From assembly GCF_000264995.1 (NCBI RefSeq), contig NW_006767437.1, positions 1,173,383 through 1,221,453 of the forward strand: a stretch of DNA of 48,071 nucleotides. Reading direction: 5' to 3'. A program made the translations under genes and the position numbers. This stretch comes from Punctularia strigosozonata HHB-11173 SS5. Taxonomy: Eukaryota; Basidiomycota; Agaricomycetes; Corticiales; Punctulariaceae. The notes beneath the pieces were generated by a model that worked only from the letters and a program-made list of their open reading frames with translations, was not told where the DNA came from and ran no database searches. This document shows, piece by piece, positions 27,463 to 48,071 of this stretch (position 1 is its first letter; each line of letters starts with the position of its first letter).

Positions 27463-29498
27463 CTACCCCAACAAGCTCCTAACGTATTTCATCAGGTCCC
27501 TGCTCCCCCGTTTCTTCACGTCGGCGATCATCGCGTTCACCGCGTCCACTTCCTCCTCTACCTCTTCCTGCCCTTCGTTCTGCCCCTCTTGCCCCGCGAG
27601 AACGGAAAGGGGAGCCCGCCGCCGCGCACGGTGGCCGAGGCCGTAGCGCGAGAGCACGGTCAGCACCGCGCGCCAGCCCTCCATCACGTCTTCTTTCGGT
27701 TTTGTCCCGGTCGCAGTGGCGTTAGCGGTGGTGTCGCTTGATGAGGTGGATGTGGAAAGCGAAGGCGAGGGAGGGGAGGGGAGGGTGGGAATGACCGTCG
27801 ATCGCACGAGGTAGGGGCAGTACGAGCGGTGCTCCTTGAGCAGGTCGAACGGCCGTTGGTGCTGCTGTTGAGCGCGCGGCTTTGGGGTCGGCGGAGCGGA
27901 GTCGACGTCCATTGCAGCAGCACTGCTCGGAGGAAGAGGGGGAGGCTCTTTCTTGGGGATAAACGTCCACAGTCCGACGCGGCGTTGGCACAACTCGCAG
28001 AAGAGGGTCGCGTTTTCGGGTTTAGTGTAAGTACTACTCGTTCTCGCTCCGTAGGTGGACGAGAAGGGGTTGGGCGTGCCGGCCCGGGAGACGGAAGTCG
28101 AGGCCGATATGGAGGGCGTGGGCGAATCGTCGCCCATAGAGCGGAAAGAGGCGACGGAGGCGGAGCGTGAGAGGTTGACGAGGGAGGCGGAGGACGCAGA
28201 TGGATAGTGCGAGGGGAAGCGCGATGTCGAGGTGGAGGGGGGTGGCGGTGGAGCGGGGGCCCAGCCAAAGAGGGCAGCGAGGGCGGCGGTGTCGGATGGT
28301 TCAGCAGAGGCGGGGGCAGGAGCGGGAGTAGGAGTGGGTGAGGGAGAGGCCGGTGGAGGAGAGGAAGCTGGTTCGGGGGTAGAGGAGCGCGAGGCGGAGG
28401 AGCCGGCTTGGGAGGCGGAGGTGGGCTGAAAAAGTGGCGGGACGGTCACAGAGGCCAACGTCTTTTGGAGCGCTGAAACCTGTGTTGAGGTCTAGTACAA
28501 GAGTTAGTGAGACTATGCGGGTAAAGATTACTGGAAGCTTACCAAGGGGTGACGGATTTGAAGGCCTTCAAGTAATGGCTCGAGTAAGAGCGCGCGGGAT
28601 TTGACTTCGCGGGCCATGTATGCAGGAGGTTTGAGCGGTATGCGATATATCAAATCTGCACGCGAGTTCAGCCTCTATACTTGCAGGAGGACGTGAAGGA
28701 GACGCTGTATGCTCACCATCGCACTGACGCGTCTTCCACGGACATAAGTCCTTGTGCATCGACGCGAGCTGCAACCTCTGTTTCTCGACGAGCGCCGCGG
28801 CCGCATCCCGTGACAGACCTTCGCGACCAGCGACGACCCAGGACGCGCCGCAGAAGTCGCACACCAGCCGGTCCTTCGTCACGCCGTCGCTCGTCCAGCC
28901 GCGCTTCGCCGCGGCAACGGCGTCGATCGCAGGAGGCTTGTTGCCGTAGGTAGAGAGCTTGAAGGTGCCAAGACGGCGGATGAAGGAAGGCACGGAGGAG
29001 GGCGAGAACTCTTTCCCTGGAAGGGCGGTTGTTTGGCTGCTACTGGCGATGGCCGAGGCTTTCTTGCGACGCGACGCGGTGCGGGAGAGGATGGCGGAGA
29101 GGTGAGGAGCTTTTACGAGCGCCTCTGACTTGAGTGAGAGACTACTCGTCCTGTACAGGGCGTCAGCAAGGCATTTCAAGGAGTACATGGACCGCTGAAC
29201 GCGACTGACGCAGCGCGCGGCTCTTTCGTCTTTATGCCATACTTGGCGAGAGTCGTGTATATCGACCGTGCACCATGATGGCGTTTTGAAGGCGGCGAGA
29301 GGTCGGAAGTCGAGGGCCCAATGGCCTCGTCGAGGGTGTGGATGGCGTCGGCGATCTTGCGCTGCACAGTGGGTTCGCGTATGAGCGACGGATGTCTAAG
29401 ATGAAAGAGGCACGATGTACCTTGCGCGACGCGTCTGAGCTGGCCGGCTCATTCTGGGAGGTGGATGGTGTTGCGAGGGCGGCGGTGATGGAGCTCAT
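27463..29498 (-). CDS. C3HC zinc-finger / Rsm1-like protein (ZC3HC1/NIPA family)
   Basis: Family members include S. pombe Rsm1 (mRNA export) and human ZC3HC1/NIPA (nuclear basket). Exons on the minus strand: 29498-29421, 29361-29210, 29150-28717, 28655-28543 and 28491-27463; 601 residues. Start MSSITAALATPSTSQ. The C3HC domain spans exons 2-4: GARSIYTTLAKYGIK, FKLSTYGNKPPAIDAVAAA, the zinc ligands CDFC and HKDLCPWKTRQC, then IYRIPLKPPAYMAREVKSRA. The second half is the Rsm1 zinc finger: CELCQRRVGLW with HRSYCPYLV, followed by the conserved EGWRAVLTVLSRYG. Between them is a long Pro/Ser/Ala/Thr-rich linker. It converges on the AIF-like gene. A partial, broken copy lies at 40108-40975. Confidence 0.92.
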
Positions 29499-29979
29499 GA
29501 GGACAGAGCGTCCGACGCCGTAGGCCTCAGGACTGAGGAGAGTAGAGAGGGAAGAGACGCCGGGTCGAGCTGTGTGGCGGTGACTCAATAAGGTCAAGCG
29601 CCCGCATGACCTCGAGCTTGTCAACGTTACGATTCACCAAGTCTGGGTTCATTACCGGAGGACGACACGTTCAAGACCAGCTTCAGACGCGCGCAGGATT
29701 TTATGGGTGCTGTGCGCTGAGCAGTAATAGCTCAGTCTTCTGTATATACTACCGCACCCGGGCCTGCACTCAGCTCTATGCGTCATCGGGTAAAAGTTCA
29801 AGTAGACCTATTCAGCGTTCTATAGGCTTCTGTTAGCGTTCTGTTGCTTTATATACGTCGGATCGCTATCGTGCACATTGTAGTACAATTTGTATCAATA
29901 TGATGAACGAATGTCGTACCTCCGTCTTCCTCTGGATCCACCATCCACCGTCCACCAGTGTCCCACTCAAGCATATGCA
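29499..29979. other. Intergenic stretch between C3HC gene and DUF6535 copy 1
   Basis: 481 bases with the C3HC promoter and the 3' end of DUF6535 copy 1. Parts, such as TCAAGCGCCC and the GACGACACG segment, recur in the second copy near 41050-41140, so the intergenic DNA was duplicated too. No gene seen. Confidence 0.6.
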
Positions 29980-32836
29980 TCATCCTTCCTCCGCCACAGA
30001 TGATGATCGAGCGCCATTCGCATCACCCACCACCAGATTTCGATCGCTACCGCGTTCGACCTCTATTCTTTCTTGTCCAGCTCCGGGCTCGCGTGTCTCG
30101 GCTCGGATTGAGCCAGAGTTGGTTCCCTGCATTTGCAGGATCGTGGAAGTCGAGAGGACGTTTGACGCGTCTACTCTATGATTGGGTTGAATGCCATCGC
30201 TACCGTCGTTACACAAGACAAGCTCAATTATGGGTTCCGGACAGGTACTGGGCTTTGACACCGTCTCGAGAACGGAATTTGAATGTAACGGGGCGTCTTG
30301 ACGCGGGCCCGACGAAGGACCGGCGACCCGTCGACTGCCCATTGTTGACTCAAGGCCGAAGTGCTTGTATACATCCTCTGCATCGTCCCAATACGCGCCC
30401 CGCCAATTCCTGAAGTAGATGATTGCGGACGTGATATCTTCATTCGGGAATGAGCCGCGCCGGTGCGCCTCCAAAATAAACCTCGTGACCTTCCATGAAC
30501 AGCCGGGTGCGAATTCTCGATGGCATTCCAGAAAACGGACGAGATTATACCAGTGAATTCTCAAGCCTCCTTCAGCACCATGCTCTCCGTCGCCAGGGTC
30601 GGTCCATAGCGATAGGGCGTCAATCAAGCAGTCACCAAACGCACTCATGGCCATGCGCCAGCGTTGGAACTTGAAGGATTCCGTGTAGCGCTGGGCTCGC
30701 GCGATCCCCTCATCTGCTTCTGTATTGGTGACGCACGACACCGCGGTCCAGAAGCGATCACGATGCACGTAAGCCGACCGAAACGCGGCACGGTCATAGC
30801 ATGAACATGCAAGCTCAAGCATGTCAGTCATGTCTTTCAGCTCTGAAAACATTCAATCAGCCTTGCTTGTCGCCACAGGGAAGGTATGAATGCACCCCGG
30901 TAGATAAAACGTATTTTATCCCGAAAGCCATAGAATATAGCAGAAATATTCTCATTCGCGTCTGTCAGGTCGGACTCGTCGGACTTTGTAAGGTTTTTGA
31001 GCAAGAAATTGACGCATGGGACATGAGTACGATCATTTTGTGTCGCGATGAAGAGAATCATGACCAGCGATTTACTGTAGAGGTCGGAGGTATTCGTAAT
31101 GGTGCTCATTGCATCGGGTAGGAGCGTATCGAGACCGGATCTGAGCAGTTCTGATATCAGTAGAACTTGTGTGTCGTTGAAGGATGTCAGCGAAGCGAAG
31201 GCATCACAAAGTTTCGCGTGGTTGATCTGGGAGGTTCCCTGGCCAAAGTCGTAGATGCACGCCTTGTCGAGTATATCGAGCGCCGGGATCGTAGGTCCGA
31301 CGCATGGCATCCCGAACAGCTCCGAGATGGCCTTCCAGTACCCACGTATGCGCCGCTCCGGTTTTACAGGCCAAGAATTGTCAACCCGTTGGAGGGCAGA
31401 ACGGGTGCGCACGCGCGGTCCTGGTGAAGCGGAGATGCATCGCGCGATCACATCGTCTCCGAGTTCCTCGTGTGAGGCAAGCCACAGCAGCGAGTGGAAT
31501 TGATACGCGATGCTGCTCTCGGAATCACGTCCGAAGCACCGCAGTGCGAGATCGCGATGATCCCATCCGTCGAAAGCGTACATGTCCGGGACGGGATATC
31601 GACAATTCCAACAGTACTCTTTGATGGCTTTGAGCCGGTCTGGCCAGTTCCAGAGGTACAGGGAGGACACAAATGGTCTGATCATGCGGTAAAACGGTCG
31701 TAGAATAGGGCGTATCATCCATCCAAAAGGTGTCTTGTATGGACAAGTCTCGAAGAACAGCGGTAGTAGCACAGTCAGCGAGGCCAGGGATATGGTCAGG
31801 CCAGCGGCAGCGCAGCACACTCCGGATACGATGATATCAATAGGCCATAGAAGAGTGACGAGGCCACCGAAGAATAGTACGACTGCAAGCTGTAGTAGGC
31901 CAGGAACCAGCGTCACGATGGCGGGGACCTTCCACTTATGAAAGGCATCATAGCGGAACTTCCGAAGCTGTATGGCGTGCTGAACTGGAGAGATGTTTGG
32001 CCAAGCCATGTACTCGCGGAGCCACTGTTTCACGAATATGCCGAGCAGAGCGGAGGCGAGGGCGAGGATCAGACTCAGGAACCAGAGCATGTTGATCGCG
32101 ACCACATGTGAATCGGCCTGAAAGGACATATTCAGCGGTTCGACAGACGCAGGGGCGGCTTGGTTCAAGGAGATCTGCTGGAGCTGGAGAGAAATGTTCG
32201 AGAGGAGTTGGACAGACAGCTGGGTGTTGTCCGGTTGCAACTGGGTGTAAACCTCAACCAGGAACGCGGTGAGGACCGCGGAAAATAGACCTGCCTGGAG
32301 TACACAGTGCCTTAGCAAGCGCGGGAACGGACGAACTGGATTACGCACAAAGATGAGGAGGTTGTCGATATCCTGGGAGTAGCCCTTAATCATTTCCTGA
32401 TCATATAACCTTAGTCGGTCGTACACGTAGTCCCAGCCGGTGATATCAGTTTTTGACGGCTTGCTTTGCGCGGGCTGAAAGAGAGCCGTATTTGAGTGCT
32501 TGCATCATTGTTCAAGAATGCCCCGTCTTACCTTCGTGTACAAGTTGTGTGTCGATGGCGGATCGCCACGACTTCTCGCTCCGTTGCCGACGTTTGGAGC
32601 TTCCGAGCGTGGTTCGCCCACTACGGGCATGGCAGTTTCATCGGAAGCATCTCCTCCTTGGCTCGTGGACTGGCGATTGCCAGTGTTCGGCACCGATCCG
32701 TCCTACGACGAACATCTTAGCGACCTCCGCTTTGAGCTACACGGCCCTCCCGTCTCACATACGGCCCGGGTTCCTCATGGGGCCCGCGTCCTTCCTCAAA
32801 ACTGGATAAATCGACGGAGTGTCGTCGCGACGTCAT
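29980..32836 (-). CDS. DUF6535 multi-pass membrane protein, copy 1
   Basis: Function unknown; DUF6535 is an agaricomycete family that is often multicopy. Exons on the minus strand: 32836-32759, 32702-32532, 32474-32349, 32294-30896 and 30842-29980; 878 residues. Start MTSRRHSVDLSSFEEG. A polar N-terminus leads to GWDYVYDRLRLYDQEMIKGY. Four hydrophobic segments follow: AGLFSAVLTAFLVEVY; LWFLSLILALASALLGIFV; TLVPGLLQLAVVLFFGGLV; and a VCCAAAGLTISLASLTVLL span. The FVKQWLREYMAWPNISP loop between segments 2 and 3 is identical in the copies. A cytosolic helical region follows, then a final exon with DMLELACSCYDRAAFR and a Ser/Gly/Glu-rich tail. Intron 3 is 54 bases without a stop, so its retention would only add 18 residues. 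The gene is head to head with acetate kinase copy A. Confidence 0.87.
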
Positions 32837-33392
32837 GATGTAAGAATGAATATGCGTAGAGTGGAGGGATCAGAGTGAGTGCAGCGCGCAGGCGGCGATA
32901 GTTGTCGTGTAGCTACAGCTCGAAGGCGGACTCAAGATGGCTTCTGATATATCTGATAGCTTATGGCGCACGCGTTCACAGCGTGTACTGAGGCAATACA
33001 TCCCGAAAGCTAGAGCTCCAAAGCCTGATCCAGCACCCAAGAAGGACGCATGCGCACGCACGTACGTCGCATAACTCTGAAGTCTCATCGGAGAAAGGCA
33101 GGGTGACAAGTCGGCGGGGACGGGCAAGGATAGGCAAGGATGGGCATTCGTGAACGTATGGCGCACGGTCACCGTCACTGCTTTGCTCCCGGCATCACAA
33201 TCAATTTTGCTTAGATCCTCTTCAACGCGTGCTATAACCACGAGTATGCTCGTTCAGATATTGGACTTTGAATGGGGATGGTTTATGTCGGACACTCGCC
33301 AGCGATGACACAGGGTTGACGTCGACACGCTCCTCCCTCGCACTGCGCCTGGAGATAGACCGCATCATGCCGCATACGGAGGATACCCAACC
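32837..33392. promoter_or_regulatory. Divergent region between DUF6535 copy 1 and acetate kinase copy A
   Basis: 556 bases between opposed starts, with no gene. A segment beginning CTTCTGATATATCTGATAGC (32941) is repeated exactly in the equivalent region of copy 3 (from 44615), so the shared promoter was duplicated with the pair. Confidence 0.6.
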
Positions 33393-34757
33393 ATGTCGAT
33401 GGCACTGACTTCACTTTTCTGTGACCACTCTTGGTCCCGACCACGACCATGCTCATCCAACGACGAAGCCTGATCCTTTCCGTCAGCGCTGGCTCGTCCT
33501 CCCTCAAGGTCTTCTCTCCAAGCCCTCAGGATCCACTTTCTCGGACAATCTCGAATCTTCCATCGACAATCTCTCTTCTCTGCCCGTCCGCTTCACTCTG
33601 GAGCACGAAGACGCCTCTCCGTCCGACTCGTCCCAAGACGTCAAAAAATAACAGAAGGATGACATCAAAGACCACGCGTCCGCGTTCGCCTAGTAGACCA
33701 TCTGGAGCATGGATCCGGCATCAAGAAAGGCGACCTCCAACAGGTCTACCACCGTGTCGACCACGGCGGCGGCTGCGCAGAGCCCGTCGCCATCTCCTCA
33801 AAGACGTACGACGACCGCGTCGAGAAGCTCACCGACCTCGCGCCTCTGTACGTTCCCTCCACCCGTTCTCTCTTTCATGCCTATCATGCTGATGCTGGAA
33901 CTCGGACAGACACGACGGCACCGCCCTGGCCGTCATCCAAGCCTGCCTCAAATCCCTTCCAAACGCGCGCTCCATCGCCTCCTTCGACACCACCTTCCAC
34001 TGCGCCCTCCCGGCCCACGTCTCCTCCTACGCCATCGACCCCTCCGTCGCCCGCCCGCGCAGCCTCAAGACATAGGGCTTCTACGGCATCTTCTGTAAGC
34101 CTACCCTCCCCTCTCTCTCCCACGTCTCTCTAACGTACCGCATAATATGCAGACGCCTACATCCTCCGCACCGTCTCCGCCCACGTCCGCAAACCACCCA
34201 CGGGGGTCTCCAAAATCGCCCTCCACCTCGGCTCCGTCGCCTCCGCCTGCGCCATCCACGCCGGCCGCTCCATCGACACCTCCATGGGCCTCACCCCCGT
34301 GCACGGCCTCCCGGGTGCCACCCGCGCCGGCGCAATCGACCCCAGCCTCATCTTCCACTACACCAACACCGCCGGCCGCATCTCGCACGACCCCGCGCAC
34401 GCGACGAACGCGGGCGTCACAGAGGCGGAGGAGATCTTGAACAAGAAGAGCGGGTGAAAGGCGATGACCGGTTCCGCGGACTTTAGGGAGATCGCGAAGC
34501 GGGATGCGGGCCGCATCGGCGAAAAGTCGGTGGAGCTCCGGGAACGCATCGCGGAGCGCGTGCGGTGTTTGGGATACAGGCCCGTGGATCCAACGAAGAA
34601 CGCGGGTGTGGGGGATGCGGAGGGGGCGGTGGTGGATATCACGGCAGCGGAAGGAGGGGAAGGGGAAGGGGAAGGGAAGAGGGTGTTGGTGTGTAGGACG
34701 GACGAGCAGTACGAGATGGCGAGGGAGTGCGCTTTGGAGGATGAATTTTGGAAGTGA
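33393..34757 (+). pseudogene. ack: Acetate kinase pseudogene, copy A
   Basis: Acetate kinase makes acetyl phosphate from acetate and ATP, or the reverse; fungi use it with phosphoketolase. Homology runs from an ATG at 33393 to TGA at 34757 in five former exons, recognised by ILSVSAGSSSLK and by RTVSAHVRKPPTG, LHLGSVASACAIHAG and SIDTSMGLTPVHGLP. The copy is dead: a one-base loss at the exon 2 acceptor (GACGAAG, near 33465), TAA replacing a Glu codon after DVKK (about 33648), TAG codons near 33692 and at the Tyr of LKKYGFHG (about 34071), and TGA for Trp in KSGWKA (about 34455). A deletion of roughly 170 bases near 34510 also removes the last intron and the VGYVGAYFVALQGNVDALVF segment. The 3' end (EKSVELRER onward) is nearly identical to copy C. 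Confidence 0.88.
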
Positions 34758-35122
34758 GGGCCTACGAGGTACGGGCGGTTGTGACACATGCTCCTCTTCG
34801 GTACGCTGATGTTTTCGTCGGGATAGATAAAGATCGTGCATGATATGGTACAGCGCGAAACCAATAACGATTAATTGAATTCGATACGTTTCGCGTCGAA
34901 GTCAGCTCCAACTACCGCGGAGACAAGCGTGTATGGTCCATACATCCTCGGACGGTCATGAAAACACGAACAAATACATGCTCCCGGTATCACTAACGAC
35001 ATCACTTGCTCAGACCTGCCCGACAGTCTATAGGTTATCACGTTCCAGGACAATCAATATGGGCGCTCCCGGGCTATCGTGCACAACGTCACCTTCCGCG
35101 CTTCATAGCAATAAACGGGCTT
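34758..35122. other. Intergenic stretch between convergent acetate kinase copy A and DUF6535 copy 2
   Basis: 365 bases with no gene. The sequence is almost identical to 46679-47044, the matching interval after acetate kinase copy C, which shows that this part of the duplication is recent. Confidence 0.75.
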
Positions 35123-38100
35123 TCATACCTCGGATTCCCCCATGATACGTCCCGAGAACCCTGACCCTTCCTCCGCCCCAGGTGACGACTCGATGTCTCG
35201 TACGGCCCCCACCCCGGTGTCCTCGGCGCGATCGTGCTCGACGCCTGCCTGCATGAGAACGCTGTCCGTGATGCCCGCCTGTCCTCTACCGCCGTCCTGG
35301 CTCTCGACGCGAGACACCGGTCGATTTTGGCTCGACGACGGGACTCCGTCGTAGTGTGAAGTTCGATTCGAGATATCCTGCGTGTCCGAGGTATTGGGCG
35401 ATGGAGGCGCGCTCGCACCTCCAACATCGCGCTCCATCTCCACACCAGTTTCTCCTGCAACAATCGACAAAGTGCTGCCCCGGGCACTGATATTCGGGCT
35501 TCCGAGGTGAATCTGTCCGCCATAAGGAAGCGAGTCGTCATCGACAACGCTCTGCTGTCCACCTCCGGGCTCCCCATTCGAGTGAGAGTCGGTCCGCTGC
35601 GCCTGCAGGCTCCCGGAAGTCGCGAGTGCGTTCGACGCGGCAGCCCTACGATCAGATCGCGTGCCATCATGACCATCGTCATCGGAGACGGTTTCATTGT
35701 TGAAGTCCGAATCGAGATGTGGCGTTGACTCCATGTTGCGAACGGAATGTGGATGTGGTAGCACTGACAGGGCGTCTTGGCGCGTATCCGACGAAGGACC
35801 GACGGCCCCTCCGCTGCCCGGTGTTGGGTCAACCCCGAAGTACTCACATACATCGTTTGCGTTGTCCCATCCCGCATCCCACCAATACTTCTCGCTGATG
35901 AATGCCTCCATTACCCTTCCATCCGAGAAGGACCCGCGCCGATGAGCTTCCAAAATCAACTTTGCGACCTTTTTTGGACAATCTGAGCCCGTGTCGCGAT
36001 GGCGTCCCAGAAACGCGACAAGTTTTTTCCAGTCCACCCTCAAGTCTCTTTCAGCCAAATGGCCTCCGTCGCCAGGCTCGATCGATTGTGACAGTGCATC
36101 TACCAAGCATTCACCAAACGCACTCATACCGGTGCAACAGCGTTGGTCGTCCGCCCAACCGTGCCCCTCGAACCAAGTTTCCCATGCCTTCGTGATGCAC
36201 GACACCGCAGCCCAGAAGCGACGACGGTGCTCCTGACTCGAACGAAACTTGGCACGGTCGTAACATAAACATGCAAGCTCAAGCATGTCAGCCATGTCTT
36301 TCGCATCTGCAACCATCCAGTCAGCCTTGCTATCGCCACATGAAGGCTATGCATGTACTCAAGGGGTAGAAAGGTATTATCTTTGTAAAGGCAGGAATTA
36401 TAGCAGAAATCTTCGGAATCACCCTATCTATCCGGAAGGACCGTTTGGAGTTTGCCAGGTTTTCAAGAAGGAAGATGGCGCATGGGGAATGGAGACTGTC
36501 ACTCTGTCCTGCGATCAACGTCATCATGATCAGCGAGTTGACGTAGAGGTAAGACCAGCTCTCGGCGAAATCATGCTTGAACATATCGAGACCGGACCGG
36601 AGAAGTTCAAATATGAGTAGAACTTGTGTGTCGTTGAAGGAATTCAGCGAATCGAAGGCACCATGCAAAAGTTGATCATAGGAGATATCATACGTTCCCT
36701 TGACATCGTCGTAGTTGCATTCCCTGTTGAGTACAACGAGCGCCGGGATAGTAGGTCCGACACATGGCGTCCCGAGCAGTTCACAGATGGCCCTCCAGCA
36801 CCCATGGAGTCGGTACTGCGGCGACATCATAAAATCATCAGATTCAGCCAATGTTTTGAGAGCGGCACGGGTGCGCATGCGCGGTCCTGGTGCATCGGAG
36901 ATGCATTGCGCAATCACACCGTCTCTGGGTTCCTCGTGTGAGGCAAGCCACAGCAGCGAGTGGAATTGTGACGCGATACTGCTCGCGGGATCACGTTCAA
37001 AGTGCCGCAATGCGAGATCACGATGATCCCATCCGTCGAAAGCGTAGCTATCGACATGGGGGGCCAAACGGCGATAGCGGAATCTCGGGGTAGGGTCCAT
37101 CAACCCCAGGTCTTGCCGACGATCCCATTGCGCTCTCATTCTCCGCCGCATATAATTATCAAGGAGGCGATATAATGGTCGTAGAGTCGCCAATATCATC
37201 CAACAAAAGGGTGTCTTGTATGGACAAGTATCGAAAAAAAGTGGTAGCAGCACAGTTAGGGTTGCCAGGGATATGATCAGTCCAGCGGCAGCGCAGCACA
37301 CCCCAGCTACGACGGTGTCAATGGGCCACAGTAGAGTGACGAGCCCGCCGAAGAAAAGCACGACCGCGAGCTGCAAAAGGCCAGGAACCAACGTCACGAT
37401 AGTGGGGACCTTCCACCTCTGAAAGGCATCATAGCGGAACTTCCGAAGCTGTATGGCATGCTGAACGGGGGAGATATTCGGCCATGCCATGTACTCGCGA
37501 AGCCATTGCTTCACGAATATGCCGAGCAGAGCGGAGGCGAGCGCGAGGATGAGGCTGAGGAACCAAAGCGCGTTGATCGCGACCACGTGGGAATCGGCCT
37601 GAAAGGACATGTTCAGCGGATTGATAGACGCAGGGGCGGCTTGGTTCAGAGAGATCTGCTGCAGCTGGAGAGAAATATTCGAGAGCAGTTGGACGGAGAG
37701 CTGAGTGTTGTCCGGCTGCAACTGGGTGTACACTTCGATCAGGAACGCGGTGAGGACCGCAGAGAACAGACCAGCCTACCAACGCACGTCGCGTTAACAA
37801 GAGCGGTGATAGATGAAGAGAATAGCGCACGAAAATGAGGAGGTTATCGATATCCTCCGAGTATCCCTTGATCATCTCCAGATCATATATCTGCAGCCGC
37901 TTGTACACGTAGTCCCAGCCCGAGACATCTGATGTTGTCGGCTTGTCTTCCGCGGGCTGTCAAAGGGTCGCATTTCAGTAACTTACAGCTATCCAAGAAT
38001 GTCGCCATTTACCTTCGCCTTAAGGTCGTCTGCGGATGGCGGGTCGTTACGATTGCCCGCTGCACCGCCGCCGTTTTGAGTTTCTGGACCTGGTTTGCCC

Positions 38101-38316
38101 ACTACAGGCCTGGCCGCTTCATTACGAGCATCTCCTCCTTGGCTCGTGGATCGGCGATTGCCAATGTGTGGCACGTCCTACGGTAAAGAGGTCAGCGACC
38201 ACTACTTGAACAGCACGGCCTAGATCTCGTCTCACATCCATCGGGGGTTCTTCTGGAGGCTCAGGCCCTCGTTCAGCGATGTTTAATACCGGGCTGGAGG
38301 GTGGTGGCGACGCCAT
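35123..38316 (-). CDS. DUF6535 multi-pass membrane protein, copy 2
   Basis: Second intact member, function unknown. Exons on the minus strand: 38316-38236, 38177-38013, 37956-37831, 37775-36359 and 36306-35123; 990 residues, the longest of the three. Intron positions and phases (0, 0, 0, 1) equal those of copies 1 and 3. Start MASPPPSSPVLNIAER differs from the other copies, but GWDYVYKRLQIYDLEMIKGY, the four hydrophobic segments and FVKQWLREYMAWPNISP are conserved. Here intron 3 is 55 bases and must be spliced out, which supports splicing at this site in all copies. The final exon has DMLELACLCYDRAKFRS and a long Ser/Gly/Asp-rich tail of about 220 residues ending GRIMGESEV. The last 640 bases of the gene are repeated almost unchanged at 47045-47697. 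It is the most diverged of the three in its 5' half. Confidence 0.87.
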
Positions 38317-38786
38317 GCGAGAAGGAGTTGAGCAGGTGTGGACGGTATCCGCAGAGAGAGGAGAGAACGGAGGGAGTGCGGCTCAGGCAGAGAAAGGCGT
38401 TTTGTAAGTAGCTCCAGGCAGTAGGCGCTCGAGCGCAGAGCGAAACTTCATATCGGCTCAAGATATTTTGCGGCGTAGGGCGTGTTGACAGCGTGTATGC
38501 ACGATATCCTATATACGTATGTACTCATGAATGCATATGACCCGTTCCGTAGACGGATTCTTGTTCCAACTCAACTCAGGACCGAAGACGCACATCGCAC
38601 ACCTCTCAGCAGGAGAAGGACAAGTCGGCAAGGGCAAGTGTTCGTGACCCTTCGCCATTTGCTTTGCTCCCGAACGTTGTCCGAGGCGTTGACGGGCATC
38701 ACATTTATCCGCTAATCACGTTGCTCTCGATACACGCCGAAGAACAACACCGTCCTTGACGGAACACGTTACTCAGCGTATCAACC
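38317..38786. promoter_or_regulatory. Divergent region between DUF6535 copy 2 and acetate kinase copy B
   Basis: 470 bases, gene-free. It corresponds in position to the divergent regions at 32837-33392 and 44462-45115 but is strongly diverged; short matches such as ACAGCGTGTA remain. Confidence 0.5.
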
Positions 38787-39974
38787 ATGCCGCAACAGTT
38801 CAGGTTTGTTGTGGGAACGACGTTGACGCGCTCTTATGGAGGCTATCGTACTTATCTTATCACGTCAACAACCGGGCCTTCACGTTGTCCACTGTGCAGA
38901 CCGTCGACGACCGTACCTGCCCAAGATTTGATCGTCTCCGCCAATCCTCCCTCAAGATCTTCCTCGTCCAACATTCAGGCTCTTCCTCGGATTCAGACCC
39001 TCGTGGACTTTCTCCTTGAGCCTTCTGTCGACCGTCTCTCATCCTGGCCAGCACGCTTTACACCTGAATACGATGATACCTTTATCTCCAACTCCAGCCA
39101 AGACTTCGAGAATGAGCAGGAAGACAAGATCAAAGACCATGCGCCCGTCTTCTCTTCCTGGCCCACCTGGCGTTAGTTCTCGGGGCCAAGAGTAGTTCTG
39201 CCACCGCGTCGTACACGGCGACTGCTACTCCAAGTCTCTCGCCATCTCCTCCAAACCTACCACCACGTTAAGATGCTTGCCGACCTCGCGTGTTTGTACG
39301 TCTCCTTCCACCCTATTCCGAACGACGTGATATGCTGACGCTTTCATGTCGATAAACATAACGGCGCTAGCAGACCTTCAAGCCTGCCTCAGATCTCTGC
39401 CAATCGCACGCTCGATTGTCGACTTCGACAGGACCTTCCAACGTGCCCTCCCCGCCCGCGTCGCGTCGCACCCCATCAACCCTTCTATCGCCCGTCTACG
39501 CGGCCTTAAGAAACACGGCCTTCACGGAATCTCATGTACGTGCCTCCCCTCCCTCTGCCCTTCCCATTCATCTCATATCATACTACGCGATGCAGACATA
39601 CATCCTCCACCCCGTCTCTACACTCTCCCGCCGCAAACCCCCTGCCATGTATCTCTCATTGCCACTATCTCGGCTCTGGCGCCCCCACCTGCGCTATCTG
39701 CGCCGGCCATTCCATCGACACCTCTATGGACATCACCCAGGCGCACGGCCTCCCGAACGCGATGAACGTGAGCCCGATCTTCTGTTGCATCAATACCGCC
39801 GGCCGCATCTTACACGATCCTGCTCACGCGACGAACGTGGGCGTGTCCGAACCGAAAGAGATCACGAGCAAGAAGAACGGGATGGAAGGCGACGACCTGC
39901 TCTGCGATCGAAGAGATATCGCAGACGGGACACGGACGAGAAGAGGTGAGATTGCGACGATATCATATGCTTGA
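38787..39974 (+). pseudogene. ack: Acetate kinase pseudogene, copy B (highly degenerate)
   Basis: The oldest and most damaged acetate kinase copy. Homology can be followed only piecewise in changing frames: a start-like ATG at 38787, a LIVSANPPS/SRSSSS segment equivalent to ILSVNAGSSS, SSQDFENEQEDKIKDHA equivalent to SSQDVKKEQKDDIKDHA, ADLQACLRSLPIARSIVDFD equivalent to IQACLKSLPNARSIAYFD, and SIDTSMDITQAHGLPNA equivalent to SIDTSMGLTPVHGLPGA, then CINTAGRILHDPAHATNVGV. Frame changes and stops separate these pieces, and the C-terminal part with the GGIGEKS motif is missing. It stands head to head with DUF6535 copy 2. Confidence 0.8.
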
Positions 39975-40107
39975 GCTTGTAAACATGAAGTTGAAGATGC
40001 TGACCTTTTCCGTACGTCTGCAGGTGAGCCTTCGAACTGCTGGTGCACCGCATTTTGGCCTGCACCCCGGGGAAGCGTCGACGACGCGCTCGTCATCGCA
40101 GGTAGTG

Positions 40108-40975
40108 CGCGGGATTTGAGTTCGCGAGCCATCTACGAGGGAGGCTTGAGCAGTATGCGGTGGATCGAGTATGCACGCCAGTTGAGACTCTACATTCGCA
40201 GGAGGATGTAAAGGATGTAAAGGAGACGCTCATTGCTCACCATCGCACGGACGCGTCTTCCACGGACACGATTCCTTGTGCATTGACGCGTGCGGAAACC
40301 TCTGCTTCTCGACGAGCGCCTCCGCCGCGTCCCGAGAAAGACCCTTGCGCCCCACGACAACCCGGGACGCCCCGCGGGAGTCGCACACCAGCCAGTTCTT
40401 CGTTACGCCGTCGCTTGTTCAGCCGCGCTTTGCGGCGGCGCGTCAGTTCCAGGAGGCTTCTTGCCGTAGATCGAGCACTTGAGGTATGCGGAGGAGGGCG
40501 AGAACTGTATCCTCGGCAGGGATGTTTTGTTGGGCTGTTACTGGCGATGGACGCGGCTTTTCTTGAGACGCGACGCGGTGCGGGAGAGGATGGCGGAGAG
40601 GTGAGGAGCTTTTACGAGCGCCTCTCATTTGAGTGAGGGACTGCTAGTACTGTACAGGGCTTCTGGAAGACAGTCCAAAGAGTACATAGAATGCTGAACG
40701 CGACTAACGCGGTGCGCGTTTCTCTCGTCCTGATGCCGTACTTGGCGAGAGTCGTGTATATCGACCGTGCACCATGACGATGGTTCAAGGGCGGCGAGAG
40801 GTCGGAAGTCAAGGGGGCGATGGCCTCATCGAGGGTGTGGATAGCGTCGGCGATCGTGCGCTGCATGAGCAACGGATGTCTGAGGAGTCAGGACAGGAGA
40901 GGTGCGGCGTAGTTCAGTCTAAGAGGAGGATGGTGTTGCGAGGGCAGCTGTGATGGAGCTCATGAGGAAAAGGTA
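40108..40975 (-). pseudogene. Partial duplicate of the C3HC zinc-finger gene
   Basis: On the minus strand this matches 28590-29505 of the intact C3HC gene, covering its exons 1-3 and part of exon 4 with introns. Recognisable pieces are GARSIYTTLAKYGI, KIADAIHTLDEAI (here TIADAIHTLDEAI) and the zinc-finger strand near 40270-40400. The copy lacks the region encoding the Rsm1 half, has lost the KLSTYGNKPPAI stretch around 40460, and contains small indels that shift the frame, such as a repeated GGATGTAAA at 40203-40220. It is not expected to make a working protein. Confidence 0.85.
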
Positions 40976-41346
40976 TTTGACGTCGCAGGACTCCGCAGAC
41001 GCTGCTGGAGAAGGGACAAACAAGCGCTGGTCGGATTGTGTGGAACAAGCTCAAGCGCCCGGATGACCTCTCGTTTCAATTCTTGCTTATCAACATTACC
41101 GGCTCAGCGTCAGGACTGGTATGGGAGAACGACACGGGCATGGTCAGCCTCAGATGCGCACAGGATTCGGTAGGTGCTGAACAACACCAGCGCAGCGCAC
41201 GGTTATGCATGTAGGACTAAATGAGCATTCTGTCGCGCTATATATGCTCTCTTGCTATCGTGCATACTGTCGATACCACGAGATCAATTCGATGAACGAG
41301 TTTCAGACGGGCTCAACCTCCCTGTCCACCGGCCACCAACGTCCCG
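40976..41346. other. Intergenic stretch downstream of DUF6535 copy 3
   Basis: 371 bases, gene-free, diverged copy of 29506-29979. It contains the 3' end of DUF6535 copy 3. Confidence 0.55.
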
Positions 41347-44300
41347 CTATTCATGTCCTCCTTCAGACGACGACCCTGCGCCCTCCGCGTGTCCCACCTC
41401 CAGATTTCGATTGCCGCCGCGTTTGACCTCTGCCTGCGCCGCAACGCTATTCTTGGCGCTATCCTGTTCGCCGCTACCGTCTTGGCGTTCGACGTGATGC
41501 GCCAGTGGATTTCTGCTCGACGTAGAGACTGAGTCGTAGGCTGGGATTCTATCCGGCGTATCCTCCGCATCCTGTCTGTCTGACGCAGGCCATGTCGGCG
41601 CGCTGGCACACTTGACGTCGCGCTTGATCTCACTACTCTGTCCCTCTGTAATAGTCGCTGAAGTGCTGCCTTCGGCCGTAATCATCTCCGGGGCTTCAAG
41701 GGGAATTCGTTCACCATGAGAAAGCGAGGGTTCGTCGGGAATGTTCTGCTTTCCAGTTCCGGGCTCGCGCGTCTCGACGCGGAGCGAGGCAGAGTCGGTT
41801 CCCGACGCTTGAAGGATTGTTGAAGTCGAGAGTACGTTTGACGTATCTACCCCATGATCGGGCGGTGTACCACCGCGATCGCTCTTGTACGAAGCGGCTT
41901 CGTTGACGGGTTCCGTACCGAGATGCGACTTAGATACGGATTTCCGACCAGAGTCCGAATGCAACAGGGCATCATGAAGCGGATCTGACGAAGGGCGGAC
42001 CTCCCCTCCGTCGTCTAGTGTGGGCTGAATCTCGAAGTACTCGTATACATCATTTGCACTGTTCCAGCTGAGATCCCAAAAAGAACGCCAACTAATGAAT
42101 GCACCCATGATGTTCTCATCCGCGAGGGAGTTGCGTCGGTGAGCCTCCAAAATGAGCTTCGCGACCTTTCTTGAGCAATCGGGGGCGGTGTCCGAATGGG
42201 ATCCCAGAAAAGAGGCTAGATCATACCAGTCCACCCTCAAGTCGGCTGCAGCAACAGGGTGTCCATTGCCAGGCTCGGTCCATAGCGAGAGCGCCTCTAC
42301 CAAACGGTCACCGAACACACCCATAGCCGTGCTCCAGCGTTGGGAGTCGTTCCAGCCTGTCCGTGCTTGGGTGACCACGGACACCGCCGCCCAGAATCGG
42401 AGACGATGCAATGGATCCGTCCGAAACGCGGCACGGTCATAGCATGAACATGCAAGCTCAAGCACGTCAGCCATTTCTTCCGGCTCTGCAAACATCCAGT
42501 CAGCCTTGCTATCGCCACAGGAAAGGTATGCATGCACCCAGCCAGATGTACAGCATGTGACTCCCAAGTGCGCGAATGAAGGCAAAAATCTTCTCATTTG
42601 CGCGGCTTGTCAGTGAGGACTGGTTGGAGTATGCGAGGGTTTTGAGAAGGAAGACGATGCATGGGTAATCGAAATAAGTATTCATTCTTGTAATGAAGGT
42701 CATCATGATCAGTGAGCTGGTGTAGAGGCCAAACCAACTGTCAATGTCGCTCATCGATTCACGGAGGAGCGTATCGAGACCAGACTTGAGTAGTTCAAAT
42801 ATGAGCGAAATTTGGGTGTCGTTGAAAGATGTCAGCAAATCGAAGGCATGCTGAAGTTTTTTGTAGTTGATTGCGACGGTTCCCTGGGCATCGTTGTATT
42901 TGCACTCCTTGTCGAGTACATCGAGCGCCGGGATTTTAGATCCGACACATGGCATCCCTAACAGCTCGGAGATGGCCTTCCAGTATGCACGCAGGCGTAG
43001 CTCCGGCGTTACAGGCCAAGAATCGTCATAATGTTGGAGGGCAGAACGGATGCGCACGCGCGGTCCTGGTGCATCGGAAATGCATTTCTTTATCACACCG
43101 TCTCTGGGTTCCTCATGTGAGGCAAGCCACAGCAGCGAGTGGATTTGAGTTGCGATGCTGCTCTCTGAGTCACGTCCAAAGCGTCGCAAGGCGAGATCGC
43201 GATGATCCCATCCGTCGAAAGCGAACATGTCGGGGACGGGATATTGGCAGGTATAACAGAAAGCTTCGATGGATCTGAGCCAGCGCGGCCAGTTCCAAGA
43301 GTATAGGGAGTACAGGAATGGTCTGATGAAGCGGTAAAACGGTCGTAGAATAGGGTGTATCATCCATCCGAACGGTGTCTTGTATGGACAAGTCTCGAAG
43401 AACAGCGGTAGTAGTACAGTCAGCGTCGCCAGGAATGTGGTCAGGCCAGCCGCAGCGCAGCACACTCCAGCCACGACGGTGTCGATGGGCCAAAGTAGAG
43501 TGACGAGACCGACGAAGAAAAGCACGACCGCGAGCTGCAAAAGGCCAGGAACCAACGTCACGATAGTGGGGACTTTCCAGTTTTGAAAGGCATCGTAGCG
43601 GAACTCCCGAAGCTGTATGGCGTGCTGAACGGGGGAGATGTTCGGCCATGCCATGTACTCGCGAAGCCATTGCTTCACGAATATGCCGAGGAGAGCGGAG
43701 GCGAGGGCGAGGATCAGGCTCAGGAACCAGAGCGTGTTGATCGCGACCACATGGGAATCGGCCTGAAAGGACATATTCAGCGGTTCGACAGACGCAGGGG
43801 CGGCTTGGTTCAAGGAGATCTGCTGGAGCTGGAGAGAAATATTCGAGAGGAGTTGGACAGACAGCTGGGTGTTGTCCGGCTGCAACTGAGTGTAGACCTC
43901 AACCAGGAACGCGGTGAGGACCGCAGAAAATAGACCTGCCTGGAGTGCACGCTGCCTTAGCAAGAGCGGGAACGGACGAACTGGATTACGCACAAAGATG
44001 AGGAGGTTGTCGATATCCTGGGAGTATCCCTTGATCATTTCCTGATCATATAACCGTAGTCGGTCGTACACGTAGTCCCAGCCGGTGACGTCAGATTTTG
44101 CCGGCTTGCTTTGCGCGGGCTGAAAGAGAGCCGTGTCTTAGTAACTTGCGGCATTGTTCAAGAATGCCATGTCTTACCTTCGTCTTTAGGTTGTGTGTAG
44201 ATGGCGGGTCGTCACGATTTCCCGCTGCGTCGCTGATGTTGGGACCCTCTACGGGCATGGCAGTTTCATTGCGAGCATCTCCTTGGCTCGTGGACTGGCG

Positions 44301-44461
44301 ATTGCCAGTGTTCGGCACCGATCCGTCCTACGACGAACATCTCAGCGACCTCCATTTCGAGCTACACGGCCCTCCCGTCTCACATACGGCCCGGGTTCCT
44401 CATGGAGCCCGCGTCCTTCTTCAAAATTGGATAAATCGATGGAGGGTCGTCGCGACGCCAT
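41347..44461 (-). CDS. DUF6535 multi-pass membrane protein, copy 3
   Basis: Third intact member, duplicated from copy 1. Exons on the minus strand: 44461-44384, 44327-44178, 44119-43994, 43939-42538 and 42485-41347; 964 residues. Start MASRRPSIDLSNFEEG matches copy 1 closely. GWDYVYDRLRLYDQEMIKGY, the four hydrophobic segments and the FVKQWLREYMAWPNISP loop are retained with few changes. The last intron (42537-42486, 52 bases) joins MLYIWL to EPEEMADVLELACSCYD. Exon 5 is longer than in copy 1 and ends in a Ser/Glu/Gly-rich tail (AEGAGSSSEGGHE) that has diverged much more than the membrane part. Intron 3 is again 54 bases with no stop. It is head to head with acetate kinase copy C. Function unknown. 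Confidence 0.87.
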
Positions 44462-45115
44462 GCAAGAACGGACTGAACACGTGTAAACGGCGCGGTATGC
44501 GTAGAGAGGAGAAAACAGAGTGTGCAGCGCGCAGGCGGTGGGAGTTGTCTTGTAGCTACAGGCAGTAGGCGCTCGGACGCGGAGCGAAGCCTGATATCAA
44601 TCAGCTCAAGGTAGCTTCTGATATATCTGATAGCTTATGGCGCACGCGTCGACAGCGTGTACAAAGGCACTACATCCCGAGATCTAGAGCTTCAAAGCCT
44701 AGTCCAGGACCCAAGACGGACGCATGCGCATGCGCACCGCATAACTTTAGAGTCTCAGCTAGTCTCAGTCGAAGAAAGGCAAGATGACAAGTTGGGGGCA
44801 AGGACGGGCATTCGTGAACGTATGGCGCACGGGCACCGCCACTGCTTTGCTCCAGAACGTCGTCGACGCCTTCGGACTCGTTGACGAGCATCACCATCAA
44901 TTTTGCTTGGATTTCTCCTCAACGCGCTACTGCCACGAATATGCTCGTCCACGGATATGCTCGTCCAGATATTGGATTTTGGGATCGCCAGCGCATGGGG
45001 ATGGTTTATGTCGGATGCTCGCCGGCGATGACACAGGGCTGACGTCGACGCGCTCCTCCCTCGCACTGCGCCTGGAGATAGACCGCAACACGCCGCGCAC
45101 GGAGAATATCAAACC
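44462..45115. promoter_or_regulatory. Divergent region between DUF6535 copy 3 and acetate kinase copy C
   Basis: 654 bases between opposed ATGs. It keeps long matches to 32837-33392, including CTTCTGATATATCTGATAGC from 44615 and the CGCTCCTCCCTCGCACTGCG segment near 45050, close to the kinase start. An open frame running through it into the kinase (from 44784) is probably fortuitous. Confidence 0.6.
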
Positions 45116-46678
45116 ATGTCGACCACACTTTACCGCCATCCTTTCCGTGATCACTCCTCTTGGTACCAACCACAACCACAACCATGCCCAACGACAAGGC
45201 CTGATCCTCTCCGTCAACGCCGGCTCGTCTTCCCTCAAGATCTCCCTCTTCAAGCCCTCGGGATCCTCTTCGTCGGACAAGGACCCCGTCGCGGACCTCC
45301 TCCTCGAATCCTCCATCGACGACCTCTCCTCCCCGCCCGCGCGCTTCACCCTCAAGCACGAAGACGCGTCTCCGTCCGACTCGTCCCAAGACGTTAAGAA
45401 AGAACAAAAGGATGACATCAAAGACCACGCGTCCGCGTTCTCGTACTTCCTAGGCCATCTGGAGCACGAATCCGGCATCAAGAAGGCGGACATCAAGCAG
45501 GTCTGCCACCGCGTCGTCCACGGCGGCGACTACGCAGAGCCCGTCACCATCTCCTCCGAGACCTACCACCATATCGAGAAGCTCACCGACCTCGCCCCTC
45601 TGTACGTTTCCTCTATATCTCCTTCTCTTTCGCGCCTTATCATGCTGACGCTTGGAACTCGGGACAGACACAACGGCGCCGCGCTAGCCGTCATCCAAGC
45701 CTGCCTCAAATCCCTCCCGAACGCGCGCTCGATCGCCTACTTCGACACCACCTTCCACCGCGCCCTCCCCGCCCACGTCTCCTCCTACGCCATCGACCCC
45801 TCCGTCGCCCGCCCACGCGGCCTCAAGAAATACGGCTTCCACGGTATTTCCTGTAAGCTTCTTCCTCCTCCCCTGTCCTCCTCTTCTACGTCTCTCTCAC
45901 GTCCCACATAACACCCAGACGCCTACATCCTCCGCACCGTCTCCGCCCACCTCCGTCTCCATCATCGCCCTCCACCTCGGCTCCGGCGCCTCCGCCTGCG
46001 CCATCCACGTCGGCCGCTCCATCGACACCTCCATGGGCCTCACCCCGGTACACGGCCTGCCCGGCGCCACCCGCGCCGGCGCAATCGACCCCAGCCTCAT
46101 CTTCCACTACGCCAACACCGCCGGCCGCATCTCGCACGACCCCGCGCACGCGACGAACGTGGGCGTGACGGAGGCGGAGGAGATCTTGAACAAGAAGAGC
46201 GGGTGGAAGGCGATGGCGGGATCCGCGGATTTTAGGGAGAGATCGCGAAAAGGGATACGGACGAAAAGAGGTGATTTTTTTAAAACCTCGATTTCACTCT
46301 CCTGGACGAAGAACTGCTGACGACGTTATGTGTAGGTTGGCCTTTGACTTGTTCGTGGACCGTATTGTCGGATACGTCGGCGCCTACTTCGTCGCGCTCC
46401 AGGGCAACGTCGACGCCCTCGTCTTCGCGGGCGGCATCGGCGAAAAGTCGGTCGAGCTCCGGGAACGCGTCGCGGAGCGTGTGCGGTGTTTGGGATTCAG
46501 GCCAGTGGATCCGAAGAAGAACGTGGGTGTGGGGGATGCGGAGGGGGCGGTGGTGGATATCACGGCAGCGGAAGGAGGGGAAGGGGAAGGGGAAGGGAAG
46601 AGGATGTTGGTGTGTAGGACGGACGAGCAGTACGAGATGGCGAGGGAGTGCGTTTTGGAGGATGAGTTCTGGAAGTGA
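45116..46678 (+). pseudogene. ack: Acetate kinase, copy C: best preserved but frameshifted
   Basis: Five exons can be traced: 45116-45146, 45199-45601, 45668-45852, 45919-46270 and 46336-46678. The start MSTTLYRHPFR joins LILSVNAGSSSLKISLF, the phosphate-binding motif. HRVVHGGDYAEPV, SIAYFDTTFHRALPAHV, KKYGFHGIS, LHLGSGASACAIHVG, FVDRIVGYVGAYFVAL and AGGIGEKSVELRER follow, covering the whole ASKHA fold. In exon 4, 17 bases present in copy A are missing after CACCTCCG (near 45956), and two extra bases (AG) lie in the DFREIAKRD codons near 46241. Between these lesions the normal frame is displaced and the displaced frame stops at TAG before the second lesion. It is therefore probably non-functional, unless the two lesions are assembly errors. 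Role, if functional: acetate/acetyl phosphate interconversion. Confidence 0.82.
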
Positions 46679-47044
46679 GGGCCTACGAGGTACGGGCGGT
46701 TGTGACACATGCTCCTTCTCGGTACGCTGACGGTTTCGTCGGGATAGATAAAGATCGTGTATGATATGGTACAGCGCGACACCAATAACGATTAATTGAA
46801 TTCGATACGCTTTCGTGTCGTTGTCAGCTCCAACTACCGCGGAGACAAGCCCGTATGATCCATACATCCTCGGACGGTCATGAAAACACGAACAATCCAT
46901 GCTCCCGGTATTACTAATGACATCACTTGCTCAGACCTGCCCGACAGTCTATAGGTTATCACGTTCCAGGACATTCAATATGGGCGCTCCCGGGCTATCG
47001 TGCACAACATCACCTTCCGCGCTGCAAAGCAATAAACGGGTTTC
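46679..47044. other. Intergenic stretch after acetate kinase copy C
   Basis: 366 bases without a gene, nearly identical to 34758-35122. Confidence 0.75.
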
Positions 47045-47697
47045 TTACCTCGGATTCCCCCACACCAGTGTTACGTCCCGAGAACCCTGACCCTTCCCTG
47101 ACCCTTCCTCCGCCCTAGGTGACGACTCGATGTCTCCTACGGCCCCTACCCCGGTGTCCTCGGCGCGATCGTGCTCGACGCCTGCCTGCATGAGAACGCT
47201 GTCCGTGATGCCCGCCTGTCCTCTACCGCCGTCCTGGCTCTCGACGCGAGACATCGGTCGATTTTGGCTCGATAACGGGACTCCGTCGTAGTGTGAAGTT
47301 CGATTCGAGGTATCCTGCGTGTCCGAGGTATTGGGCAATGGAGGCGCGCTCGCACCTCCGACGTCGCGCTCCATCTCCACACCAGTTTCTCCTGCAACAA
47401 TTGACAAAGTGCTGTCCCGGGCACTGATCTTCGGGCTTTCGAGGTGAATCTGTCCGCCATGAGGAAGCGAGTTGTCATCGACAATGCTCTGCTGTCCACC
47501 TCCAGGCTCCCCATTCGAGTGAGAGTCGGTCCGCTGCGCCTGCAGGCTCCCGGAAGTCGCGAGTGCGTTCGACGCGGCAGCCCTACGATCAGATCGCGTG
47601 CCATCGTGACCATCGTCATCGGAGACGGTTTCATCGTTGAAGTCCGAATCGAGATGTGACGTTGACTCCGTGTCGCGAACGGAATGTGGATGTGGTA
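47045..47697 (-). pseudogene. DUF6535 copy 4: truncated C-terminal tail only
   Basis: Minus-strand open frame that matches the last 640 bases of DUF6535 copy 2 almost base for base, including HSNGEPGGGQQS, STLSIVAGETGVEMERD and SQDGGRGQAGITDSVL. Everything upstream, including all membrane segments, is missing because homology stops at 47697. The C-terminus differs: a 10-base duplication (TGACCCTTCC) and an insert near 47060-47100 change the end to KGQGSRDVTLVWGNPR. Without a start region or DUF6535 domain it is a gene fragment. Confidence 0.85.
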
Positions 47698-48071
47698 CTA
47701 TCATTCCCACACTTGCTGGACACCCGGGGATTCTGGACACTCGAATCTTTTGCGTCCTCCCGTGGATTTCCTGAGCTCAAACTGGTGTAGATATGTTGTA
47801 TCACATCTGATCTACTGTGCCGCGTTGAGAGCACGGAAATCAGTTGGGGAAAAGTAGCACGGTGAGCCTGGCAAGTCCCAGAATCATGCTACGCCGCCGG
47901 TAATCCCGCCGTTCCTGCTTTTATACCAATGCCTTGTACATGTTACCTCCCAGAGTACATTGCTTGATGTATCAATGAGTGCAGACTGCAATAAAATTGG
48001 ATGTTAGGGTGTTTCCGAAATGGAAAGCCGGGTCTCAAGACACGCGCGGGAGCAGACAGGACGTGCATTCC
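47698..48071. other. Unique sequence at the right edge
   Basis: 374 bases beyond the duplication breakpoint. I find no gene, repeat or RNA in it. Confidence 0.5.

Follow-up and report, generated by a model that had tools for sequence, protein, structure and literature searches.

Tandem superunits in a multi-copy DUF6535 gene array of Punctularia strigosozonata, with signs of exchange between copies and a transposon insertion

The HNWD family of Podospora anserina, to which het-d and het-e belong, exchanges WD repeats between its loci, and positive selection has been reported for it in the accessible portion of the account (PMC1805685). The P450 clusters of Phanerochaete chrysosporium are tandem gene clusters of a basidiomycete, according to the available part of their description (PMC1184071). 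The phosphoketolase-acetate kinase pathway of basidiomycetes has been described in Phlebia radiata, and the gene identifiers plus.g11264 and plus.g11263 in the accessible sections of that report suggest that these genes are neighbours (PMC7038570). In a search of open-access papers, the name DUF6535 turned up in one paper, in a table only. DUF6535 is a family of mushroom-type basidiomycetes.

In this study, we analyzed a stretch of 48,071 nucleotides from P. strigosozonata HHB-11173 SS5 (the window), which corresponds to C5:1,173,383-1,221,453, C5 being a 2.27-Mb contig in an assembly of 33.57 Mb and 32 contigs. Copies were compared within this one strain's contig. We consider it likely that the window carries two tandem superunits of about 12 kb, the second in part, in a multi-copy array, made mosaic by exchange and broken by a transposon, in which the DUF6535 genes were kept and their passengers decayed. 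The gene names used in a preliminary description of the same DNA agreed with the Pfam matches (zf-C3HC and NuBaID_C, DUF6535, and acetate kinase, ack). The features are listed below; positions without a contig label refer to the window.

27463..29395, (-), complete C3HC/NuBaID gene at the edge of the array's right-hand part (Pfam zf-C3HC and NuBaID_C)
29980..32504, (-), DUF6535-1 of alpha type with two exons, both open (Pfam PF20153)
33449..34757, (+), ack-A, pseudogene with stop codons and a 4-nt deletion; 193 nt of coding sequence missing around intron 3
34150..35780, boundaries approximate, tract of high identity (about 92-96% per 250-column window); counterpart about 45,900-47,697
35123..37974, (-), DUF6535-2 of beta type, frame open in all 481 codons examined (Pfam)
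38945..40074, (+), ack-B of beta type, a pseudogene both truncated and diverged
40104..41179, (-), 5' fragment of C3HC, pseudogene; the second superunit starts here
41347..44137, (-), DUF6535-3 of alpha type, frame open in all 472 codons examined (Pfam)
45184..46678, (+), ack-C, pseudogene with two 2-nt insertions, one of them behind the start codon, and a 17-nt deletion
47045..47697, (-), DUF6535-4, 3' part, beta type, interrupted by a transposon; the gene continues at C5:1,224,409-1,226,628
47696..47697, first copy of the duplicated TA target site, the other being C5:1,224,407-1,224,408
47698..48071, left end of a Tc1/mariner-like element, 3,327 bp as a whole and ending at C5:1,224,406; termini CTATCATTCC / CTATCATGCC

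Self-BLAST of the window returned three matches in the same orientation, each with a printed E of 0.0, namely 28,589-29,712 with 40,104-41,179 (74.3%), 30,076-34,509 with 41,752-46,260 (79.0%) and 34,506-35,760 with 46,427-47,697 (94.0%). The block 28,589-35,760 is therefore repeated at 40,104-47,697, far beyond chance, and the preliminary description had both the coordinates and the offsets of 11.5 and 11.9 kb right. Its proposal of a tandem segmental duplication was borne out by self-BLAST and by alignment of unit against unit, the adjacent copies having equal gene order, orientation and homologous intergenic DNA; the right-hand C3HC copy is truncated, as it had stated. DUF6535-2 and ack-B also repeat, since 35,758-40,074 matches C5:1,224,406-1,228,814, outside the window. 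The order within the superunit of about 12 kb is C3HC(-), DUF6535-alpha(-), ack-alpha(+), DUF6535-beta(-) and ack-beta(+). The first superunit extends from the C3HC gene as far as about 40,074, and the second from the C3HC fragment at 40,104, past the window, to C5:1,228,814.

A single pair of left and right copies, as first supposed, did not describe the locus, because DNA and family searches placed in the window two of several copies, which occur in both orientations. Copies of DUF6535, ack and C3HC are spread over about 255 kb (C5:983-1,238 kb), in + orientation at C5:983-988 and 1,201-1,238 kb and in - orientation at C5:1,050-1,067, 1,104-1,118 and 1,139 kb. Genome-wide family counts are lower bounds, and by these the region holds at least 11 of at least 47 DUF6535 match rows and every one of at least 16 acetate kinase match rows; 107,339 bases of the region plus the window were read. 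An assembly artefact, with heterokaryon haplotypes placed one after the other or a wrong junction at 35.7-40.1 or 47.7 kb, would agree with the assembled contig being the sole basis of the comparison and with the partly N interior of the transposon. Such an artefact is very improbable, as divergence between aligned copies is about 6-35% (in matches over 500 bp), the copies occur in both orientations across about 255 kb of the 2.27-Mb contig and carry different disablements, and the join at 47.7 kb has a TA duplication with matching ends.

Other repeats were seen in and beyond the window. Positions 26-2016, which include part of an AMP-binding enzyme, are repeated inverted at C5:1052380-1054305 (86%), beside an array copy about 120 kb off, and short direct repeats (84-86%) lie at the left edge, in 1382-1604. 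Further groups of DUF6535 matches occur at C22 67-175 kb and C19 252-297 kb, apart from any acetate kinase match; several of the C22 matches contain stops, and the four C19 rows contain 0.

The right copy had been said to break off inside a coding region at 47,697, and this end had been taken as a duplication breakpoint. An interruption in DUF6535-4 was indeed present, but the repeat does not stop there: a TA-flanked transposon occupies the site, and homology to 35,758 onward picks up again at C5:1,224,406, behind it. The empty site is seen in DUF6535-2, which reads ...GGATGTGGTAGCACTGAC without interruption. In DUF6535-4 the insert splits this site, with ...GGATGTGGTA abutting CTATCATTCC on one side and GGCATGATAG abutting TAGCACTGA on the other, and TA stands on both sides. 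The terminal inverted repeats are short and agree at 9 of 10 bases; a repeat search in 3,300 bases of element sequence without the left end, partly N, found no terminal inverted repeats. The first 374 bases of the element and the preceding TA occur at four places in the genome including this one, with different flanks, the others being C6:1999020-1999395, C3:220981-221356 and C8:1276629-1276960 (99, 95 and 82%), where the left end likewise abuts TA. Tc1/mariner elements are known for a TA target duplication and short inverted ends. The insert resembles these DNA transposons in both respects and is here called Tc1/mariner-like, the superfamily being assigned from its ends alone.

The uneven identity pointed out earlier was confirmed by a sliding-window check, which gave 62.9% to 97.6% in 250-column windows over the whole unit. 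In this alignment of unit against unit, with the transposon left out and identity taken per 250-column window, values were 80-85% in C3HC, 63-75% in the spacer and the C-terminal half of DUF6535-1, 84-97% in its N-terminal half, 83-87% in the 5' part of ack, 92-96% from about 34.13 to 35.7 kb, 79-98% in DUF6535-2 and 69-76% in ack-beta. Part of this unevenness fits selection, with a conserved DUF6535 domain set against the C-terminal part. Among nine DUF6535 genes picked for near-completeness, median dN/dS over 36 pairs was 0.06 in columns 0-180 (residues 71-250 of D1, most of the Pfam domain), 0.52 in columns 180-240 (34 usable pairs), 0.22 in columns 240-300 and 0.73 beyond. Mean dN was 0.04 in the domain and 0.30 in the C-terminal part, and because mean dS was similar in the two (0.58 vs 0.49), the domain appears to be kept by selection and not by exchange. 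Positive selection on DUF6535, sought by pairwise comparison of dN with dS, was not shown. In columns 180-240, dN exceeded dS in 2 of the 34 usable pairs (Fisher p 0.28 and 0.32), the pairs not being independent; the same non-independent pairs gave counts, without a significance test, of 1/36 in columns 240-300 and 6/36 beyond 300.

Selection alone, acting on the conserved and fast parts of one old duplicate, is thus true in part, as the median dN/dS values of the domain and the C-terminal part (0.06 vs 0.73, 36 pairs) indicate. As an account of the whole unit it has very little probability, since synonymous and non-coding divergence should then be even along the unit, which was not seen, and since topologies switch between segments. 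Moreover, the most similar tract includes non-coding spacer (A/C 94.8% of 363, with the copies named as below) and a pseudogene's last exon (95.1% of 244). With spacer and pseudogene exon this alike and the 1.111-Mb copy at 83-87%, the high tract is not explained by protein constraint, and exchange in register can explain it. The earlier hint at conversion was supported; the contrast between the DUF6535 C-terminal part and the domain fits constraint and not conversion (mean dN 0.30 vs 0.04).

Four copies of the ack-alpha / DUF6535-beta part were aligned, namely A (window 32.6-38.0 kb), C (in the second superunit) and two that lie inverted, at C5:1.065 and 1.111 Mb. Along this alignment pairwise identity changes partner, and the 346 two-against-two sites among its 4,281 ungapped columns were divided by segmentation into five segments. 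Sites pairing A with C, with the 1.065-Mb copy and with the 1.111-Mb copy numbered 10, 4 and 1 in 32,924-33,275, and 0, 0 and 39 in 33,365-33,775, where ack-A groups with the 1.111-Mb copy at 39/39 sites. In 33,863-36,015, which includes the high tract, they numbered 12, 14 and 17, and no topology stood out. The counts were 226, 3 and 3 in 36,020-37,273, where DUF6535-2 goes with DUF6535-4 at 226/232 sites, and 11, 3 and 3 in 37,308-37,995. The best single breakpoint had a log-likelihood ratio of 96.7, compared with at most 13.8 in 2,000 shuffles, in tests that treat sites as independent and use segments picked on the data being tested. Between 34.5 and 35.76 kb, identity among A, C and the 1.065-Mb copy is 90-97%, against 83-87% for the 1.111-Mb copy; the high-identity tract from 34,510 is common also to the inverted copy at C5:1,063,817-1,065,085 (93%). 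In the nine DUF6535 genes, each of the two parts, columns 0-180 and the remainder, rejects the tree of the other (AU p 0.0015 and 0.00016), the trees themselves being weakly supported (43-62% on 5/6 branches for the N-terminal part, 30-63% on 4/6 for the C-terminal part). Internal tracts are related otherwise than their flanks, beyond constraint, and the four-copy mosaic is good evidence, at the level of aligned sequence, for ectopic conversion or recombination. These topology switches support the preliminary proposal that gene conversion or several events lay behind the uneven identity. We infer that the tracts arose by conversion and not through double crossovers; any direction of transfer would be inferred in the same way.

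Two successive duplications of different age, an old one of C3HC-DUF6535-ack and a recent one of the right end, could also produce such steps without conversion. Identity does step sharply at about 34.15 and 35.8 kb, and the array clearly grew through several duplications. We nevertheless regard this scenario as unlikely, because the high tract is internal, its flanks keep mutually incompatible relationships, gene order is unbroken through it, and a new duplicate would have to land exactly in register. Exchange between the copies of the array is thus the preferred reading of the high tract.

The state of the reading frames differs among the gene families. Nine of the 12 DUF6535-like places (fetched stretches or family rows) stay open for 467-483 codons, beginning at about residue 71. 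The damaged ones are C5:1,050 kb, which lacks the domain, 1,139 kb, which has the first part alone, and 1,237 kb, with a stop in the family match; DUF6535-4, one of the window's copies, is itself interrupted by the transposon. Among second-exon matches, 12/13 are stop-free and the thirteenth runs into the transposon. Stops within the first 70 residues were found in 5/9 genes at shared positions (residue 9 in three, residues 66 and 70 in two), which is compatible with an intron whose end lies near residue 70, together with a start or an intron after residue 9. The C3HC copies fared differently: NuBaID_C has one place genome-wide, in the gene at 27463..29395, which we take to be of NIPA/Rsm1 type, and zf-C3HC has three places (genome search). 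The C3HC copies at C5:1,116 and 1,213 kb have 24-nt and 4-nt deletions in common as well as stops, and in the 983-kb copy the zinc-finger domain is still open but just 29 residues of the next part are seen. The disablements that copies have in common show that dead pieces were duplicated together with the DUF6535 genes.

Acetate kinase shows a similar pattern of decay. At the threshold used for the window, Pfam matched ack-C, and ack-A and ack-B were recognized through the genome search. One of ten ack places in the stretches read is intact, at C5:1,064,837-1,066,375, outside the window and inside the array; a complete PF00871 domain in an open frame was found there and in none of ack-A, ack-B and ack-C. 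This gene encodes 438 aa and has three introns, with all four exons matched by the genome search and GT-AG ends chosen by the analyst, and its best solved match is 4h0p (E = 1.2e-79). Apart from its indels, ack-C is close to the intact copy. The pseudogene ack-A and the inverted copy at C5:1.111 Mb have 1-nt and 21-nt deletions in common, and each has further ones of its own. The five ack-beta copies contain several frame-breaking indels each and 0-4 stops, as counted in an alignment of rather diverged DNA, and their match stops by residue 332; the ack fragment at C5:1,234,674-1,235,389 is spread over three frames. An exon-by-exon search, which could miss a gene, found no match in the genome to phosphoketolase (PF03894, PF09364) or phosphotransacetylase (PF01515); its controls gave matches in 3, 4 and 10/14 named genomes, no fungus being among those listed. 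The array thus holds the one acetate kinase gene that was found intact genome-wide, and matches to these two enzymes were not found.

Considering these results together, we propose a probable course for the locus. Several duplications of the superunit gave rise to the multi-copy array in both orientations on one contig, and ectopic gene conversion or recombination between copies would have made each a mosaic, with identity jumping at the borders of donor tracts. The apparent break at 47,697 is due to a Tc1/mariner-like transposon that entered DUF6535-4 at a TA. Selection would keep the DUF6535 genes, presumably the selected part of the unit, with the domain conserved and the C-terminal part diverging, and the acetate kinase and C3HC pieces would be mostly passengers that have decayed, one ack outside the window remaining intact. 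A birth-and-death DUF6535 cluster with decaying passengers is the best reading of these data. The block repeat with its ragged end became readable once the other copies in the genome were seen, and duplication, exchange between copies and the transposon each left a separate mark. The locus represents a well-marked case of birth and death in the DUF6535 family.

The processes seen here, namely duplication, exchange and transposition, are already known. The intact acetate kinase belongs to the same family as that of the Phlebia radiata pathway, as far as the accessible sections of that report describe it, whereas no phosphoketolase or phosphotransacetylase match was found here by the exon-by-exon search (PMC7038570). 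The DUF6535 array is like HNWD, in the available part of its description, as a fungal multigene family with exchange between loci, whose variable part is diversifying in HNWD; it is unlike HNWD in consisting of DUF6535 genes, not WD repeats, and dN > dS is not significant here (PMC1805685). That the array is a recombination-driven diversification locus, in which conserved domains and variable C-terminal parts are exchanged, including between oppositely oriented copies, in the manner of fungal non-self recognition families, is a tentative and rather doubtful extension of this likeness. With the P450 clusters, so far as the available part of their description goes, the array shares local duplication leading to clusters of paralogues, but its unit, which occurs in both orientations, brings together several genes unrelated to one another, of which many are dead (PMC1184071).
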